NCBI GenBank assembly: GCA_023053545.1
Contig: JAKZAN010000001.1
Span: 8,824,565 to 8,888,564, forward strand
Direction: 5' to 3'
Source of the DNA: Lepidurus packardi
Lineage: Eukaryota; Arthropoda; Branchiopoda; Notostraca; Triopsidae
Length of the DNA: 64,000 bases
Below are positions 5,729 through 55,738 of the stretch, in pieces (the first letter of the stretch is position 1; every line of letters begins with the position of its first letter). The position numbers and the translations under genes are program-made. The notes under the pieces are model-generated. The model did not search any database, had not been told where the DNA came from, and saw only the letters and a program-made list of their open reading frames with translations.

Positions 5729-6639
5729 CTCTGTTGGCCAGAAACTCCAACCCTTCTAAAGTGAAACGCATGCGCCTGCTCACGCGACAAGAATGTGTCA
5801 AAAAAGACCATCCCGAACAAGTCACTGAATCCGAACCCGCGTCACCTTCAAGCGCCCTGGTTTTAACCAAATCCTTCTCCACCTTAAGCGCCCCGCCTAC
5901 TTTTGGGGAACGGCAGCAGTCATCCCCCTCTCCCACGCCCCTCCTCTCGGCACATTCGGATTCTCCGCATTACATTCTCCCGGATGACGGACGACCCCAA
6001 ATCCAAACGTTCTTACAGGTACCCTTAAGCCACACCCACGCTAACGCGGGATTGACCCGACAGCGATCCCAGCCGATTTTACCCTCCCAAACCACAATAG
6101 TAACCACTGGTAACCTTTCCAGTCACCTACTACCCATGGTTACCACCGTCGCTGGTGGTTCTCACGCCGGGAAGTCGCTAGCAGCATTATCGGTTATTTC
6201 GGCTGAAGGGAATACGACGTCCGGCGGTAGACCGATGATTGTGGTCGACCAGTACCCGATTTTTAGGGTTGTCTCCCAAGATGAGCCTCCCACTCAGGCT
6301 GCACCCATTTTGTTACAGAGAGCAGCGTCAGCTCATGTAGAAGCAGCTGAAAATCGAAAACCCTCTCCTGTGGAAAAGAAAGGGGCGGGGCATTGTCCGG
6401 TCCAACGGACGGGACCGGCTCTAGGCTGCAATTTTTGCTGGAATACCATCGATAGTTGCGGTCGAATCCTGAGGCGCAAAACGAGGTACCATTGTCCGGA
6501 ATGTCAAGCTAACCTATGCATCGTTCCGTGCTTTCAAGAATACCATGAAAAGTTTTTGGCGTCGGGAGAGAATAAAGAAGGAAGTAATAGCAGTAAAGGA
6601 CCTGTCCCTAGTGTTTTGCCTAAAATGAGTTCAGTTTAA
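5729..6639 (+). CDS. Alternative last exon of the BTB gene: piggyBac-transposase-type zinc domain
   Basis: An acceptor (TTTCTTTCTTCCAG) ends at 5728. The exon opens with two bases that complete the same phase-1 codon left by exon 4 (ending 4320), so it can replace exon 5 and give a 524-aa protein sharing residues 1-221. The middle is Ser/Pro/Thr-rich and probably disordered. Near the C-terminus (residues about 455-494) is C-x2-C-x18-C-x2-C-x4-C-x3-C-x4-H, with RRKTRYHCPEC, LCIVPCF and YHE. That order matches the cysteine-rich zinc domain at the end of piggyBac transposases (Pfam zf-Tnp_2 type). No transposase catalytic region is present. I infer a domesticated DNA- or protein-binding module delivered by alternative splicing, as in lola or mod(mdg4), where a BTB exon set is joined to interchangeable zinc-finger exons. 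It could instead be a separate gene using an unseen first exon; the phase match argues against that. Confidence 0.75.
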
Positions 6640-47600: not shown

Positions 47601-50600
47601 GGCTTAAAAACTCTACAATATTCAGTTGTAGAATTATTCCAGAAATATAATTATGTCCAGAATCAAAACAAAACGAGGATATTAACTAGACCAAACTGAG
47701 GATATTACACTGCAAAGAAATACTGAACATACATACTTTACTGAATCTTCCAAGTACACATCGAAGTCTGGAAAAGTTAGAAAGATGTAATGGATACACA
47801 TGCAGTTAGTACATTATCGAAAAAGTATGTATGCAGTGCACTATTTATTGTGTTTTTGTTTTTAACGGTTTCAGTTTCATGTTCAAGGGTAAAGTACCTA
47901 CGTTCAAGCAACGTTTGTTCAGCTAAACCAAACTGAACTAAACTGGGTGAATGGTCTTGTTTTGGGGGGGGACAACGAGGTACGAAAGTACAATTCTAAA
48001 AAGGAACTAAACCACACTGAATGGTTCAGAACTGGGATCGCTTCCCTGATTGCCCTCGCAATAGTGCACCATGGGTCTGATTGTCGTCAGTGTAGGAGGC
48101 AGACCCTTGTTGGTTTTTGAAACTGGTCAATTCTATTGGTCCCTTTTCGAGCATTTGCCAGAAACGGCCGACCTAGCAGCATGGTCTTGAACCGTAGTGC
48201 GCGTTTGGACGCGAGGTGCAGGACCTGCTTTGCAAACGTTGTCTTTTAAAGGTAATTGGGGTATGTTGCCTCTACGGATGTAGAAGCAGTTGAGAGTTGT
48301 TCGGGAAGCCGCAGCAAAGCTTGCTGAGGAGTCCGCTGTTTAAAGGGGATATGGGGACAACCTGCCGTGGAGAGGACACCGCAGCGGCATGACGATGCAT
48401 GCGAAACATATACAGGGCGTACCGCGATGAGAAGAGTCGAAAAATGAAAATAAACACTCCAAAATATAAAAATAAGAATAACATCAAGGGGGAAAAAGTA
48501 CAGAAAGTGATATCACCTTGGGAAGTAGCTGCTCTTCGGTGTTTAGTGGAGCGTCATGATAACGTCATAAGCTGCTGCTCTGTTCTTCTGTTTCCTTCCT
48601 TCTATGCGTTTCATCGTAACACCTGTGCGTAATTTTGGCCCAATATCTTGGGATCTAATATCGTAATTAGGATGAACGTGTAGAAAGGAAGATACTTAAT
48701 TACGTCTATTTGGGATTTGTTTCCCATTTGTTTGTTTTTTGAAATGTGCTTGACTTTAAATAAAGACATTAAATAAAAATAAAAGGATCTTTTAATATAA
48801 TATGGACCAAAGGCATAATTTGGATTACAGTATATAGGTTTTTGTGGGGCCATGGGCAAGTCTGTGAACCCTGATACCCTCCAATATTCCTTCGCCCCCG
48901 CATATCCTCTTGGGACCGAGCAAGTCGGTTCCGAAACCTTTACATTGGGATATACCCTTGTTATCCTACCGTGTAAACCTATGTAGTGTGGTTTGGATGA
49001 AGGTCGGTAAAGTTTAAGGAAATTACAGTGCTCTTAAATTAAAATGTGTTCAAAACACAGGAGGCTAGACTCAATTGAGGAATTCTTATCTATTGCGAGG
49101 TTCATTAATTCCTTTTTCCTTCTTTTTTTCTGCGACACTGTATTCAGAAGCAGAAATTGCTAAGAGATGACGCATACAAAATGATAAGCAGTAATGGAGC
49201 TTCTGCTAGTATTCGAGATCATAACTCGCGCTTGGATAGATAAGTATTTCACCCTCCGTTATTGTGGCAGGCTCTCGGCCAATTTATAAATGACGCCGAT
49301 TTGTCTATAGACTGATGTGGGGACTGTCACAATGACAAAACTCCCCGGGAAAAACCCCGATTGCCGTTCTCAAAGATACACTTCAAACTTAAACGCCTCC
49401 TACTGTAGCGGGGAACATCTATCTATACAGTGGAACGAAAAAAATGTGTGAAAATTAAATATCGCCAATACTGAAAATGTCGGGACTGGAGAAGAAAAAA
49501 GTTCAAGACAAGATACAAAAGGCGGGCATGTCGTTATTTATGCTCCGCAGTCTGCATGGAGCATGGGTCAATGACAATCGAAAGCAAGAGGCAAGTTCGG
49601 ACTTGCGTGAACCGTCTTTTTAATAACACTACGCTACGCAGCAGGTTTCGTGGATGTCCGGTCTCCTTTAGCAAAACCCCAGACCACCTGAGCCATCCCA
49701 TGAAATCCAACTTTTGGGAGGCTGGGGGACAGCCCTTCTTTGAACTGAAAACTGACCAGTGAAAATGAAAAAGGTGTAAGGAAAAGCTTGGCGCTTCAAT
49801 AGTTCACAAAAAAGTCTTTGTCAATGAAAAGAAGGCAAACTTTGGCTTAGTTTGCCCCAGTTCAGCTCGAGGGCAAACATATTTTTACCGACAAGCTTCG
49901 ACAACTTGGTCACCTTTGTTCCTGAGACTTCAACAGCTAGTTAAACATAAAAAATAAAGAAATTCGGTGAGCGAATCCTGTACATTTCCAACTCTTAAAT
50001 AAAGATAGCCTTGTTATACAAAAATAACTTTACATGAAGTAAAAACAGCAAATATGTTAATCAGTCTTAATAACTATCCTTTGGTCTGGCTTCTGTTACG
50101 CATTTTCCTTTGGACTTGGACTAAATTGGCAGATTTTGATCGATTAATTTAATTGCAGCCCCTAAAAACCTGTTATGAGATCACAAACACTTTTCGAAAT
50201 TAAAAGATAAAAAATATTGGTAAATTACCATGTAAATACGAATCCAATTTACACCCCTCACACAATCCGGTAGTAAGGAAAACTTTCGAGAGCAACGGTC
50301 AAACCCAAGGTCAACATCGTAGAACAAGATGTGTCTAAATTGTGCCGTTGTCGCAAATCTCTTCATTGGATCTATTTACTTATGCTTATCACTAAGCCAA
50401 TGTTACTATACTACGTAAAGCAAACTTGGAGAACTTGGAGGCTAGCCCAGTTTTGCCCTGAAAACAATAAAAGTTGCATAAGCATAGTGAGCAAGTGAGC
50501 AAAAAGCTAATTTCTTTATATTTCCCAGTAAAAGAAAAAAAGTAAATAAAATAGGACACTTTCCTAACAATCAAGCATTCATTTAACGCCCATACAAAGT

Positions 50601-51140
50601 CCACGATTTAGTTCCCAGAAAAGAGTCACTTTTAACGCGTTTAGTATATATTAAAGCTCTCTAAAAACGTGGTAGCCACCGTAATTTTGAAATAATTGAA
50701 CGAATTTATTAAAATTTAATAACTTCTCAAGTTCAGTGAATTTTTCGAATGAACGGTTTGAACAAAGCTCGTTGATGTTTCTGTATTCTATATTAATTTC
50801 ACTAATTCACTTGCAATTTAGTTCTTTTACACTACACATGCACACTCTGCATGTTCGAAAGTCATCTAATCAGACATATACACTGTACATTTATGCATTC
50901 AGGTTTTATAGTGATCTTAATAGTACTATTTTTATTTTGTATTATTATTGTATTATTGTGAGTTACAAATAGTAATTTTGTGCTGTATTCGAATAAAGTT
51001 TTAAGTCATGTAACCGTGAAAAACAGTGATACGTTTCCTACTGCGCACATGGTCCATTTTTCCGTTTTTCGCCAACTGTCGCAATCCCGTGTAGTACAAC
51101 ACACATTCGACTATCACAAAAAAAAACATCAGCAAACCCC
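38641..51140. other. Gene-poor region, part 4
   Basis: No supported gene in about 12.5 kb. It holds homopolymer C or G runs (39297-39315, 40943-40960 followed by nine T, 43812-43821, 45897-45907), a short (CA)n at about 39427, and AT-rich segments at 40200-40450 and 45100-45720. The plus-strand frame 46919-47165 (82 codons, acidic DDDD stretch then RFRVSFCGTTLLEYP) faintly resembles the first strand of a phosphotyrosine-binding domain. It lacks an ATG and clear splice sites, so it is not called. Confidence 0.4.
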
Positions 51141-51218
51141 TCCTATGGACCCTGAGCAAAAGCTGGGGCATCATTGCCGCGCAGGGGAGATTTTCGATGA
51201 TAGCAATAGGTCGCTGCG

Positions 51219-51227
51219 TATATATAA
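51219..51227 (+). promoter_or_regulatory. Candidate TATA box of the BH3-only gene
   Basis: TATATATAA lies about 290 nt before the ATG at 51509, which would put the start of transcription near 51250. The leader would contain several upstream ATGs (e.g. about 51330 and 51359). The assignment rests on position only. Confidence 0.25.
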
Positions 51228-51508
51228 TCCCACAAACAGCAGCTTGAAAGCCGTCTGTTCGATCGACTCAAACTCCAGTCTGTTCCTGGCAAGCAACGCG
51301 TGTTGTCGTGCTCCACCGATCCGCACGGATATGTGCAAGTGCAGTAGTCGTGGTTCATGTTCATGGTCCATGTGGTTCATCTTTTGTGTACCACAACTCG
51401 TTCCACACTGAAATCAAGTTGCCTAAAAACGCTCTTCTGCGAAGAATTTCAAAACTTTGGCGCCAAAATATCGTAATTTAAAATTGTCCGAAAAAGGAAA
51501 GAAAAACC

Positions 51509-54297
51509 ATGCTGGCGCTATTTTTGGCGGGTGCTGTACCAATTGGCGCCTCTGACAGTACTGCAGATACTGAGAGTGGTATTCCTGGCGCTACAACGAA
51601 CTTACCAACAGAGTATTACTACCAAATGCTGGAAACTTTAGTCTCGGACCTGAGTTTACAAGTCGTGCGTCAATCCCAGCCTGATCTGTTGGTCCTGCAG
51701 AATCAGCCAAACCAGCCCAACGTATTCCATCCTACTCCAGCCATGGGTCTGCGTCACGTAGCGCAATCCCTGGAAATACAACACACAGGTAAAGACAAAG
51801 ATTCCCCCCCCCCCCGTAAAAAGCAGGCTTTTGCGACGAGTAACGTAGTACCATATATACCTACCGTACGCTCCAAACATGTCTGAAACTGTCTAGAAAG
51901 ACATACAGCTTCTCAACTTTTCCTTAAGGCTTAAGTCCATATTACCAACCCCCACTTGTTACCCTCACACGTGCAAACGAACCTTTTTTCTCTCTTAAAA
52001 CAAAAGAAAATTTGGAAAAAAAGAATCTATTCGCTTGACTCATCCCCATTTTCTTCTCTTAAAAATCCCTCCTTTTCCCCCAAGTTCTAAACAAGCTTTT
52101 CCTCTAGCACAGATGCCTCAACCATAAATTTCCTACTTTTTTTCCCCTAAAGTGCGAAAGATGTTTAAAACCCATGCCATAATGAAGCGAACAAAAAGAC
52201 CATTTTTCTAAGTTCCATTATTTGTTTCAAGCTTTCGTACTGTACCTCTCATTGGGGGTAGTTGGTGTGTAGAACCTCGCACGGTCCAGGCCTCGCGCTC
52301 GCTATGCAAGCCGTAACCTGCCGGGTAGAGTGTTTCGCTGGTCGTGTGTTTTATACAAGCATTTGAAAACCAGATAGCCAGTGTGGTAGTTGCTATGTAA
52401 GGCAAACGTAAGAGTAAGAATACAGTCTATATTTCTATAGATAGTAGTGTAGTGTAGTACAGCTTTGCCCCCAAAAGCTACTTGGAAAGCCAAGTCTAAA
52501 CTCAGGTAGAGAGAGAGCAACCTTTTCTGATTCTTTCCTCCCCTACCTCTGATTTTGATAAAAGCGATAAAACCCTTTTACTTTCTCTCAATTTGCTTTG
52601 GAAACGCCAACAGTTCAACGCTAAACGTCTTTGTGTGACTATTAAATGAGCGTCTTTTTGTTACACTCCTAAACATTAGTTAAGAAAACTCCCTTAAAAA
52701 AGTTAAAATTTTTGAAAGCGATTTTGTCTTCCGTTTCCTTTTCTTCCGGCCTTCTCTTGCGCCCTTAGCAGAAGCTAAAATAAAATTTTCAAAAACGTTG
52801 ATTTTTTAAAAATAATTTAACCAGCATTGGCAATTGTCTTTTGCCAGTCTATTTATTGGTTGACTTTGATTTTTACAGAACTTTTGTAGATTTATAGAAT
52901 TTATTTCTTTGCTTACAAAAATTGAAGTACAAATCGAATCGAAATCGTGACAGTCGAAGTACTCAAAAGTACTACATTCTATTTGGTTTATATTAAAATG
53001 ATCTTGTATTTCTTTTCTATCTTAAAAGGTTTTGTATGTCGCGTAGTTTCTTTTTTAAAACGTTTTGTTTTTGTAACACTATGACTGGTAATGTTTGTTA
53101 ACAAAGAATCGAAATTGATGTTTTTCTTCTCTTTGTGCTCTTTGAAATAGGAGTGCGTGTCCCGACGCACAGCCACAACTTGCCTGATTTGGTGAGCTTG
53201 TCACCTTCCAGCATCCGCACGACGACTTCGAACAAAAAGCAGAGCGTTTCGCGAACTGATTTACGTTCGAATCCCAGCCAAGAATTGCGTGTTCGGCGGG
53301 GCTATACGCCGCTCCGTTGCCGCCTGGACTCGGTCGGCTCGTCGGCTGCGGAATCGGCAACTTCTACTCCGCTCAGTCTCATGGACATCATGATGACCCC
53401 GACGCCTGAAATGCTCTCTCCCTCAACAAACTCGGCGTCATCCAGTCTTCCGCCTAATTCGGCATGGCACCAACACTACGCAGTGCCACACATTTTCACG
53501 TGGACCGTCACCACGCCCCCTCGCTCTCCCGAGATGATTGCCTCCGGATCACCAATATTTGCTCTCGATCTCCCCCTGCAATCGGACGACATGGCTCAGT
53601 ACCAACAACGAGAAGAGGCTATTGAAGACTGGCGACAAATTGGGCGCGATTTGCGATTCATTGCGGATAATTTTGCCAATCAAGAGCAACAGGTAAACGA
53701 AAATCCTAATTTTTCTGAATTTTCTAGTAAATCCGAACTTTATGCATTGCTCCTCTACTCTTCCTCTACGTAACTGTGCTGTCGCTGAATTCTAAAAATT
53801 AATTCTTTTAAGAACAAGCTCGCAAGGTGAAAGTCTCAAAATACATTCTGTAATTGCTCTTTGCGAACATCGAAAGCGAGCGCTGATAATTTTGACCGGT
53901 TCTTGTAAAGCGAAAATGTAAGCTCGGTAGAAGGCCTAGAGGGATGCTAGAAAGCACACTTTGGGGGCGAAATAAAAGCAGGAGTGGCCATCCGAATAAG
54001 CGTGAGTCATAGAGCGGAACCAGAAAACCGTTTGAAAACGTCCAACCTGTGAATCACGGCTGTTCCGCGCCACGTGACGTCATGTTTTTAGTTTTATTTT
54101 GTAAATAAAGCTAAATATCTAATTTCAATTGTCTTGAATTTTTTTTACTGTCTCTGTAGAATGGCGCACGTGGTCGCAACAACGCCAGGATTTCTTCAGC
54201 CATAATCCGAAACTGTGATGGCAAGTTTCCTACCATTTGCTCTGCAGTATTTGCGTACGTAGCCTGGAGACTGCTCAAACGACTCGTTTCGCCTTAA
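51509..54297 (+). CDS. BH3-only (BIM-like) apoptosis regulator
   Basis: A three-exon model gives 319 aa: 51509-51788, 53151-53692, 54160-54297. Introns are GT-AG and phases 1 and 0 match. Most of the protein is Ser/Thr/Pro/Gln-rich and looks disordered, with several S/T-P sites (MTPTPEMLSPS, TTPPRSPEM). At residues 254-268 is WRQIGRDLRFIADNF. It fits the BH3 rule (I257, L261, I264, small A265, invariant D266, F268) and has the W and Q spacing of vertebrate BIM. The last exon ends in a hydrophobic, basic-flanked tail (about 297-317, FPTICSAVFAYVAWRLLKRL), as expected of an outer-mitochondrial-membrane anchor. There are no BH1 or BH2 motifs. Known BH3-only proteins bind BCL-2 family members and trigger apoptosis. 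The start is the first ATG in good context (AAAACCATG); its hydrophobic first residues could mimic a signal peptide. Motif and tail are seen in the sequence; function is inferred. Confidence 0.7.
53693..54109 (+). promoter_or_regulatory. Intron with possible readthrough isoform: stop, CACGTGACGTCA site and AATAAA
   Basis: If the second intron of the BH3-only gene is retained, the frame runs on for 26 residues to a stop at 53771-53773. A canonical AATAAA follows at 54104-54109, ahead of a T-rich stretch. That transcript would keep the BH3 motif but lack the membrane tail. At 54071-54082 the intron also carries CACGTGACGTCA, an E-box overlapping a CRE-type palindrome. Both are sequence observations; use in the cell is not shown. 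Confidence 0.35.
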
Positions 54298-55738
54298 AAA
54301 GCATTTTGGTTCGATTTTTCCTATGTGGAGCCGGCCATCAAACTCGTCGCAATGCATCGATTTATGCAAAGGAAAACCTATACGTCGTCACTGCCCGTTC
54401 CAGGAAAACGTCTTTCAATTCGAATGTTTCGGGGAAGAGAATCTAGCATTGGATATGCGGAAGAAAATAATCTTTACGGTTGCCCAAGTATTTGGCCCAA
54501 GTTTGGAAGTTTTGGAGTCAATATGTTTTTCCAAAAAGGTGCACTAGTTTTTTTATATCCAAGAAAACGATTGCCAGTTTATATTTTCGTGTTCGTATTA
54601 AGAAAAATGATAATAATAATCAAGGTTATTATTAAAAACTCAGGATTGTCACTTGTCTTTAGTAATATGTAACTTCGTTTGTCTTTATGTTTTTCGGGTT
54701 TATCATACACTGATTCAGATGTCGTTTCTGGGATACGATTTGTGCATCAAAATGCTCATCAAAGCAGTACGAGTGATTGGCCCTCAAAAGCTCTGTACAT
54801 AATTTAGTCCTTAATTGCGAAGGATCTCTCTTAATCATAATTATCAAAGATTATTTGCATTTTGTAAACTTTGGGCGATTTTGTGCGTTTTTTTATACCA
54901 TGTCTTAGCCTACAAAGCTTTTCGTATCAGCTTTCTTGATCTCGTTTTGCATCTAATTAACCATCGGCGTTTGTTTATGTCAGGTTAAGTATTATTTCCT
55001 TTTCTTCTTTCAGTAAAAAAACAACAAGAAATAAGATGATTTCCCCAGTTACTTCATACAAGCAAAATACCATTTTTGTATTTATTGTTATTTACATTGC
55101 ACTCGTTCTCTTTCTCTCTTTTTAGTTTTTGTTTTCCTTTCTAGTCCCGTTTTACAGTATCTGTCCGTCTCTAACATTGAGTTTGACGTAAGAGGCTCTT
55201 GTAATCTTTTTCCGACACAATTTTCTGCTGTCATGATTTCTGTCCAGTTTATTGTCGCTTGTTTTTCTTTGGTATTCGTTTAATTTGCATAATTTGTTAT
55301 GTTGGTTTATCATTGTGTGTCTTGTGATTTCGCCCCTTTGTACGACGTAAAACTCGCACGCCAAAAAAGGTCCGCGGATCTCGCCTATACCCGGCAGTCT
55401 TTCATCACAAGTTGAATGTATATAAACAAAAAATTTGGAATTGCATAATCAAGACATGGAACCATTTCAATGGTCAGAATAAACATGAAATCCAGTATTT
55501 TCAGTTCTGATCACTTGTTTTGTTTTCTGGTGAATTTGCTGACTGTATAACGGTGAGACCTTCAAATATAAATTGTGCTAATAATTAAAACATCCACATT
55601 TCTCTAAAAGCATTTGACGGAACTTTCAACTAGTTTATTCTATTTTTATTCTGTTTACTTTTATTAGAGTCGATACCCGACCGACACCTAACAACTAACG
55701 TCAGCCGCAAAAACCATTTTAGCTTCAGTCAACGTCAT
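54298..55738. other. 3' region of the BH3-only gene and intergenic DNA
   Basis: No further gene. Frames at 54237-54672 are shadows over the last exon and its UTR. A canonical AATAAA at about 55484 is the first clear one after the stop, which would imply a UTR of about 1.2 kb; an earlier non-canonical signal may be used instead. Confidence 0.35.

Follow-up and report, generated by a model that had tools for sequence, protein, structure and literature searches.

Gene structure at the locus

The window, by which we mean the whole 64-kb stretch of DNA that was analysed, is part of the 14.0-Mb contig C1 in an assembly of 108.6 Mb and 344 contigs. On its + strand three exons close into one frame of 319 residues, and the predicted protein carries a BH3-type motif near its C-terminus, followed by a hydrophobic tail. 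This gene is considered here as a candidate for a BH3-only-type protein. Its coding exons are as follows.

51509-51788, + strand: coding exon 1, residues 1-93 plus one base of codon 94; the N-terminus is hydrophobic; donor CAG/GTAAAGA
53151-53692, + strand: coding exon 2, middle region rich in Ser/Thr-Pro and the BH3 helix; acceptor AAATAG/GAG, donor CAG/GTAAACG
54160-54297, + strand: coding exon 3, including the stop codon that ends at 54297; acceptor CTGTAG/AAT, listed also as CTCTGTAG/AAT

The same three-exon, 319-residue model had been given in a preliminary description of this DNA, and its coordinates, its in-frame joins and its GT-AG introns (the first in phase 1, the second in phase 0) were all reproduced. 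GC content was 0.504, 0.552 and 0.493 in the exons versus 0.369 and 0.392 in the introns, and the value of exon 2 was reached in 1 of 1058 segments of 540 bp across the 64 kb, the one beginning at 5881. Codon usage did not separate the exons (scores 0.002 to 0.014) from other frames, and nine true coding pieces, three of which are near-identical kinases, were spread at least that broadly (-0.084 to 0.127). An open reading frame (ORF) of at least 220 codons appeared in 32 of 2000 random sequences with the dinucleotide make-up of exon 2. Since codon usage was uninformative and random sequence can also yield ORFs of the length seen in exon 2, we regard a single gene formed by the three exons as likely rather than proved. 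That unrelated open frames were joined by mistake is hardly credible: the model is built from genomic sequence alone and codon usage lends it nothing, but the splice sites are of consensus type and in frame, and GC-rich stretches coincide with all three exons.

If intron 2 were retained, the frame would continue for 26 codons to a stop (53693-53773), giving a tail-less isoform that keeps the BH3 motif.

The BH3 motif and its predicted helix

The two features that carry the BH3-only reading lie at the end of exon 2.

53639-53674, + strand: BH3 motif IGRDLRFIADNF, residues 257-268, from rule match and profile score
53582-53689, + strand: residues 238-273, the one helix that one-sequence AlphaFold2 predicts in exon 2

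As claimed earlier for this segment, IGRDLRFIADNF agrees with the rule Phi-x3-L-x2-Phi-[GAS]-D-x-Phi at every position. When the protein was shuffled 20,000 times, the loose rule was matched in 112 cases. A stricter version, [ILV]x3L[RK]x[ILVM][AG]Dx[FLM], which was composed after the motif was known, was matched in 1 of the 20,000. When all six frames of the window were scanned and matches containing stops were excluded, the loose rule occurred twice and the strict form once.

The motif was also scored against a profile of nine vertebrate BH3 sequences from seven genes, with known members scored leave-one-family-out. Five of the profile sequences (BIM, PUMA, BMF) agree with PDB chains; for BAD, HRK, BID and BIK we used what we take to be the correct sequences. 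The IGRDLRFIADNF segment reached 17.7, and the runner-up segment of the same protein 2.2. Known BH3 sequences ranged from 15.4 (BID) to 25.1 (BIM), with HRK at 17.3, BIK at 18.5 and BAD at 18.7, so that the candidate exceeds HRK and BID and stays below BIM, PUMA, BMF, BAD and BIK. Scores of at least 17.7 occurred at 64 of 199,999,400 random positions, and at 37 of 99,999,700 when the composition of this protein was used, which corresponds to a chance of about 1e-4 per protein of this size. For an assumed proteome of 7 million residues such a score is expected about twice by chance, and the motif is therefore good but not decisive without its context.

Part of that context is structural. When exon 2 was predicted alone, the four consecutive blocks of its residues 141-180 had predicted local distance difference test (pLDDT) values of 64, 90, 97 and 88, the predicted helix being 36 residues long, and the highest 18-residue hydrophobic moment of the whole protein falls on residues 254-271, WRQIGRDLRFIADNFANQ, which contain the BH3 motif. 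The helix stands out, as the same one-sequence mode gave no residue of at least 90 in the true BCL-2-family protein L002 of this genome. In the prediction of exon 2, 133 of the 180 residues had a pLDDT below 50; intrinsic disorder around a helical BH3 is typical, though not universal, of BH3-only proteins.

These data also bear on the possibility that the gene is real and has another function, its amphipathic helix matching the BH3 rule by chance and having nothing to do with BCL-2 proteins. Such an explanation gains from the two chance scores per proteome, from the greater richness of real proteins in amphipathic helices compared with random letters, and from the searches by profile and by sequence, which linked the protein to no BH3 family. 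The rarity of both rules among the shuffles speaks against it, as does the position of the motif, which lies in the only helix predicted for exon 2 and eight residues ahead of the exon that carries the tail. We consider a chance helix rather unlikely, though it is the alternative to be taken most seriously.

Protein regions outside the motif

Three further elements of the protein were mapped.

53315-53332, + strand: RCRLDS, residues 149-154, an RxRxxS site of basophilic-kinase type, consensus match only
54226-54294, + strand: possible mitochondrial anchor formed by the C-terminal tail FPTICSAVFAYVAWRLLKRLVSP (residues 297-319)
51533-51544, + strand: AVPI, residues 9-12, putative Smac-type IAP-binding tetrapeptide, off the N-terminus

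Ser, Thr and Pro together make up 29% of residues 21-296, and 11 [S/T]P sites were counted where shuffled versions averaged 5.2 (P 0.007), in agreement with the S/T-P-rich flanks described previously.

Mitochondrial tail anchors are short, moderately hydrophobic C-terminal segments with basic flanks. In the part encoded by the last exon, a hydrophobic run of some 14 residues (297-310) is preceded by a basic stretch and followed by a basic end, with a charge of +4 in residues 277-296 and +2 in residues 313-319; the C-terminus reads LLKRLVSP. The best 19-residue Kyte-Doolittle value of the tail, starting at residue 299, was 1.19. This is weak by the yardstick of a classical membrane span, and mitochondrial tails can be this weakly hydrophobic. 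Of the C-terminal anchor proposed in the preliminary description, the short hydrophobic tail with basic flanks in the last exon was thus recovered, but it is weaker than a classical span.

The N-terminus MLALFLAGAVPIGAS holds the most hydrophobic 15-mer of the protein (residues 1-15, 1.92), followed by small residues that would suit a cleavage site, and it could be a signal peptide. The product might then be a type I membrane or secreted protein with an N-terminal signal peptide and a C-terminal transmembrane span, in which the BH3 match would be lumenal and meaningless. However, no N-glycosylation sequon was found in the 319 residues (2.7 expected) and the protein has only three cysteines, which mildly disfavours a lumenal fate; moreover, the N-terminal charge is -2 and the C-terminal span is weak. 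Altogether, a secreted or type I membrane protein appears improbable.

An AVPI tetrapeptide near the N-terminus

Within the same short hydrophobic N-terminus lies AVPI, which was overlooked in the preliminary description and which we take to be the Smac tetrapeptide. Over 11 N-terminal start positions the exact AVPI is expected 1.5e-4 times and a match to the published RHG consensus for the IAP-binding motif (IBM) 0.010 times, the tetrapeptide having been spotted after the fact; over the full length of such a protein, 0.29 matches to the consensus are expected. Because eight residues precede it, AVPI could be exposed only by cleavage.

The accessible sections of PMC8620624 give the RHG consensus as A-[KTVI]-[PAE]-[FEISY], which residues 9-12 fit. 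According to the same sections, RHG proteins carry the IBM N-terminally; a large majority of the 15 RHG genes examined in insects have their ORF spread over three exons with smaller terminal contributions (four exons in Drosophila hid), and the C-terminus of Drosophila Hid is hydrophobic and mitochondrial. A C-terminal Arg and a Gly-Trp pair 5-7 residues from the end are described there as a rule, with insect exceptions to both. RHG genes are reported in these sections only from neopteran insects, and the author's searches found none in crustaceans. In the candidate, an N-terminal IBM, the C-terminal Arg and the Gly-Trp pair were all absent, and membership in the RHG family was rejected for the misplaced IBM and the missing C-terminal GW...R, with the insect exceptions to the latter kept in mind.

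A Hid-like IAP antagonist, which would kill through AVPI and a mitochondrial tail with the helix as an accessory domain, would account for the low expectation of AVPI at residues 9-12 and for an exon plan and a tail that recall insect RHG genes and Drosophila Hid. The eight residues ahead of AVPI, the ease with which the consensus arises somewhere in such a protein, the C-terminal differences and the lack of crustacean RHG genes in the searches of PMC8620624 all argue against it, and we hold it to be very unlikely. Only slightly less of a long shot is a protein that would act on both brakes of caspases, with the BH3 helix for BCL-2 proteins and a Smac-like AVPI exposed by cleavage of the hydrophobic N-terminus, both carried on a mitochondrial tail. 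If true, such a dual protein would link the BH3-only proteins of vertebrates functionally with the Hid of insects.

Comparison with BIM and search for relatives

The motif had been called BIM-like on account of a W-x-Q-x4-L spacing. In the BIM peptide EIWIAQELRRIGDEF (PDB 2nl9), Trp stands at L-5 and Gln at L-2, whereas the candidate has Trp at L-7 and Gln at L-5; the spacing was thus misread, and only L-R-x-I-x-D-x-F is shared. Over 16 columns, identity was highest to BMF and mouse PUMA (8 each), followed by human PUMA (7), BIM and BAD (6 each), BID (5), BIK (3) and HRK (2). The TQT motif, with which BIM binds dynein light chain, does not occur in the 319 residues. The BIM profile PF08945 was matched neither by the protein in a Pfam scan nor in a search of the genome, in which the control also failed to match. 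Kinship with BIM, rejected on the Trp spacing and the missing TQT motif, is accordingly an unsupported part of the earlier label, and the BH3 should rather be called PUMA/BMF/BIM-type, as judged from these alignments.

The Pfam scan of the whole protein returned two families below cut-off, Polysacc_deac_1 (E 0.028) and DUF1611 (E 0.082), neither of them Bcl-2, and detected no BH1, BH2 or BCL-2 fold. A PDB search with the full protein gave one unrelated match (E 1.6). The whole protein had 75 pattern matches and no relatives in a collection of prokaryote contigs, and its last 72 residues had 11 pattern matches and no relatives in a viral collection; these results carry little weight, as the collections hold no animals.

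Candidate apoptosis partners in the genome

A BCL-2-family protein is encoded at locus L002 (1447-2322, - strand; Pfam Bcl-2 1.8e-22), with BCL-XL as its best match over BH1 and BH2 (E 1.2e-15). Its BH1 keeps the Arg and reads Thr-Trp-Ala-Arg versus Asn-Trp-Gly-Arg in BCL-XL; a Gly-to-Ala change in BH1 of BCL-2 or BCL-XL harms BAX binding. At a second locus, L003, an exon with BH1 and BH2 was found; in the PDB it matches BAX best (E 2.2e-6), and its BH1 Arg is likewise kept. Elsewhere in the genome, 2 matches to the p53 domain, 10 to the BIR domain (one on a small contig) and 36 to the caspase domain were found. Caspase domains cluster at C6:10062815-10086244 and C4:12938172-12948976, apparently in tandem arrays.

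In ticks, Bcl-2 and Bax homologues interact through the BH3 domain, as stated in the accessible part of PMC8336254, so vertebrates are not alone in having this machinery. This tick pair is the type of partner needed here, yet its members are multi-domain proteins and not BH3-only.

Signals flanking the gene

Upstream and downstream of the coding exons the following features were noted.

51219-51227, + strand: possible TATA box TATATATAA, weak match, which would place a transcription start site near 51250
51331-51411, + strand: upstream ORF 1, 26 codons, in the presumed 5' untranslated region
51357-51476, + strand: upstream ORF 2, 39 codons, in the presumed 5' untranslated region
55478-55483, + strand: AATAAA, first canonical poly(A) signal downstream

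TATA-type matches number 104 on both strands of the 64 kb, hence the box at 51219 is weak. The two upstream ORFs overlap (51331-51476) and could hold down translation. An ATTAAA at 54631 lies nearer than the canonical AATAAA. A scan of 50000-51508 for p53 half-sites gave one palindromic half-site (50439-50448), about the chance expectation.

Proposed interpretation as a BH3-only-type protein

The best reading of the gene is a BH3-only-type protein that would act at mitochondria by inserting its BH3 into the groove of BCL-2-family partners, because the BH3 rule is matched, no other BCL-2 domain was detected, a confident helix coincides with the motif, a tail follows it and candidate BCL-2-family partners are encoded in the genome. 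On these grounds the BH3-only part of the preliminary description finds support. We hold this interpretation with moderate confidence.

Several observations weigh against it. The Gly-to-Ala change in BH1 makes textbook BH3 binding by L002 somewhat less likely. A PDB search with the BH3 segment found no BH3 peptide, only a designed protein (E 9.9), and the mouse PUMA BH3 retrieved nothing from the genome, not even this gene, in a search that had no positive control. When paralogues were sought in the same genome, the three matches were all the gene's own exons. The folded BCL-2 protein L002, predicted in the same one-sequence mode, had 159 of 292 residues with a pLDDT below 50 (mean 46.7); since a folded protein scores similarly low, the low values in exon 2 are weak evidence of disorder, and confidence in the BH3-only interpretation was slightly lowered because this control weakens the disorder argument. 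To these are added points from the preceding sections, namely the uninformative codon usage, the long ORFs in random sequences, the two chance scores per proteome, the low hydropathy of the tail and the signal-peptide-like N-terminus.

Under a BH3-only interpretation, the tail would place the protein on the mitochondrial outer membrane, and the BH3 helix would enter the groove of the BCL-XL-like L002, the BAX-like L003 or both. Leu261 would fill the h2 pocket and Asp266 would face the BH1 arginine that L002 and L003 have kept. Binding in the groove would free or activate the BAX-like effector. Until stress sets in, the two upstream ORFs together with the S/T-P and RxRxxS sites would keep the protein low or inactive.

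Other observations in the window and genome

The window also contains a gene of the Psq-type helix-turn-helix class, which together with the genome size is among the grounds for calling the genome crustacean-like. A genome search for kinases gave 131 matches in all, 30 of which were taken as loci. On contigs C73 and above, 27 of the 30 (L009-L037 except L020 and L035) each hold at least one in-frame TAA or TAG, and two of them also TGA; the other three, on C1, C2 and C5, have no in-frame stops. L010 reads as a continuous kinase once its single TAG is translated as Gln. Lower-ranked kinase matches were mixed: several on C2-C6 contain stops, perhaps introns, and some on small contigs contain none. 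Judged by their reading frames, the small contigs seem to come from a ciliate that lives in association and uses a reassigned code.

Comparison with known systems

A 2020 review (PMC7022251, accessible part) describes extensive gene loss in ecdysozoans and states that in worm and fly apoptosis is not set off by permeabilisation of mitochondria. In the accessible part of a 2022 analysis (PMC8998228), BH3-only proteins are known from C. elegans and not from other nematode branches or D. melanogaster. A search of the open-licence PMC literature, with partly incomplete results, found no crustacean BH3-only or RHG-type protein, and in the accessible text of PMC11011146 the term BH3-only occurs once, as a reference title. 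If the interpretation given above is true, the presence in a crustacean-like genome of a tailed PUMA/BMF-type BH3-only protein together with proteins like BCL-XL and BAX would suggest that the mitochondrial pathway with its three parts was retained in some arthropods, and the candidate supplies the gene, the residues (L261, D266) and the partners with which such an arthropod pathway can be probed.

The statement in the preliminary description that BH3-only proteins have been thought rare or missing in arthropods no longer holds, since a BH3-only protein of Drosophila, Sayonara (CG14044), was shown in 2023 on genetic and biochemical evidence (accessible part of PMC10107002). There it is a coiled-coil protein of another family, PTHR21974, with a BH3 inferable only in Muscomorpha; it represents a convergent gain within Diptera. 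The candidate agrees with Sayonara in being a protein of an arthropod whose one BH3 motif is accompanied by no further BH motif. The only helix predicted in exon 2 of the candidate spans 36 residues, and identity with Sayonara was set aside from the description of that protein in the same source.

Insect Hid and the RHG genes resemble the candidate in having mostly three coding exons with smaller terminal ones, a divergent middle and, in Hid, a hydrophobic mitochondrial C-terminus, and the candidate has AVPI near its N-terminus; in contrast to insect RHG proteins, its IBM is not N-terminal and the C-terminal GW...R is lacking. C. elegans EGL-1, with about 90 residues and without such a tail, differs from the candidate of 319 residues with a tail. 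EGL-1 is an ecdysozoan BH3-only activator, as the candidate would be, and acts on CED-9 according to the accessible parts of PMC8998228 and PMC13303787.

With respect to vertebrate PUMA (BBC3), BMF and BIM (BCL2L11), the candidate stands apart by the lack of detectable homology outside the motif, by the lack of TQT and by its hydrophobic N-terminus. The vertebrate proteins have a hydrophobic tail after the BH3. The candidate shares this plan, with the core I...L..[IM][AG]D.[FL] in a BH3 near the C-terminus, a hydrophobic tail behind it and no other BH motif found.

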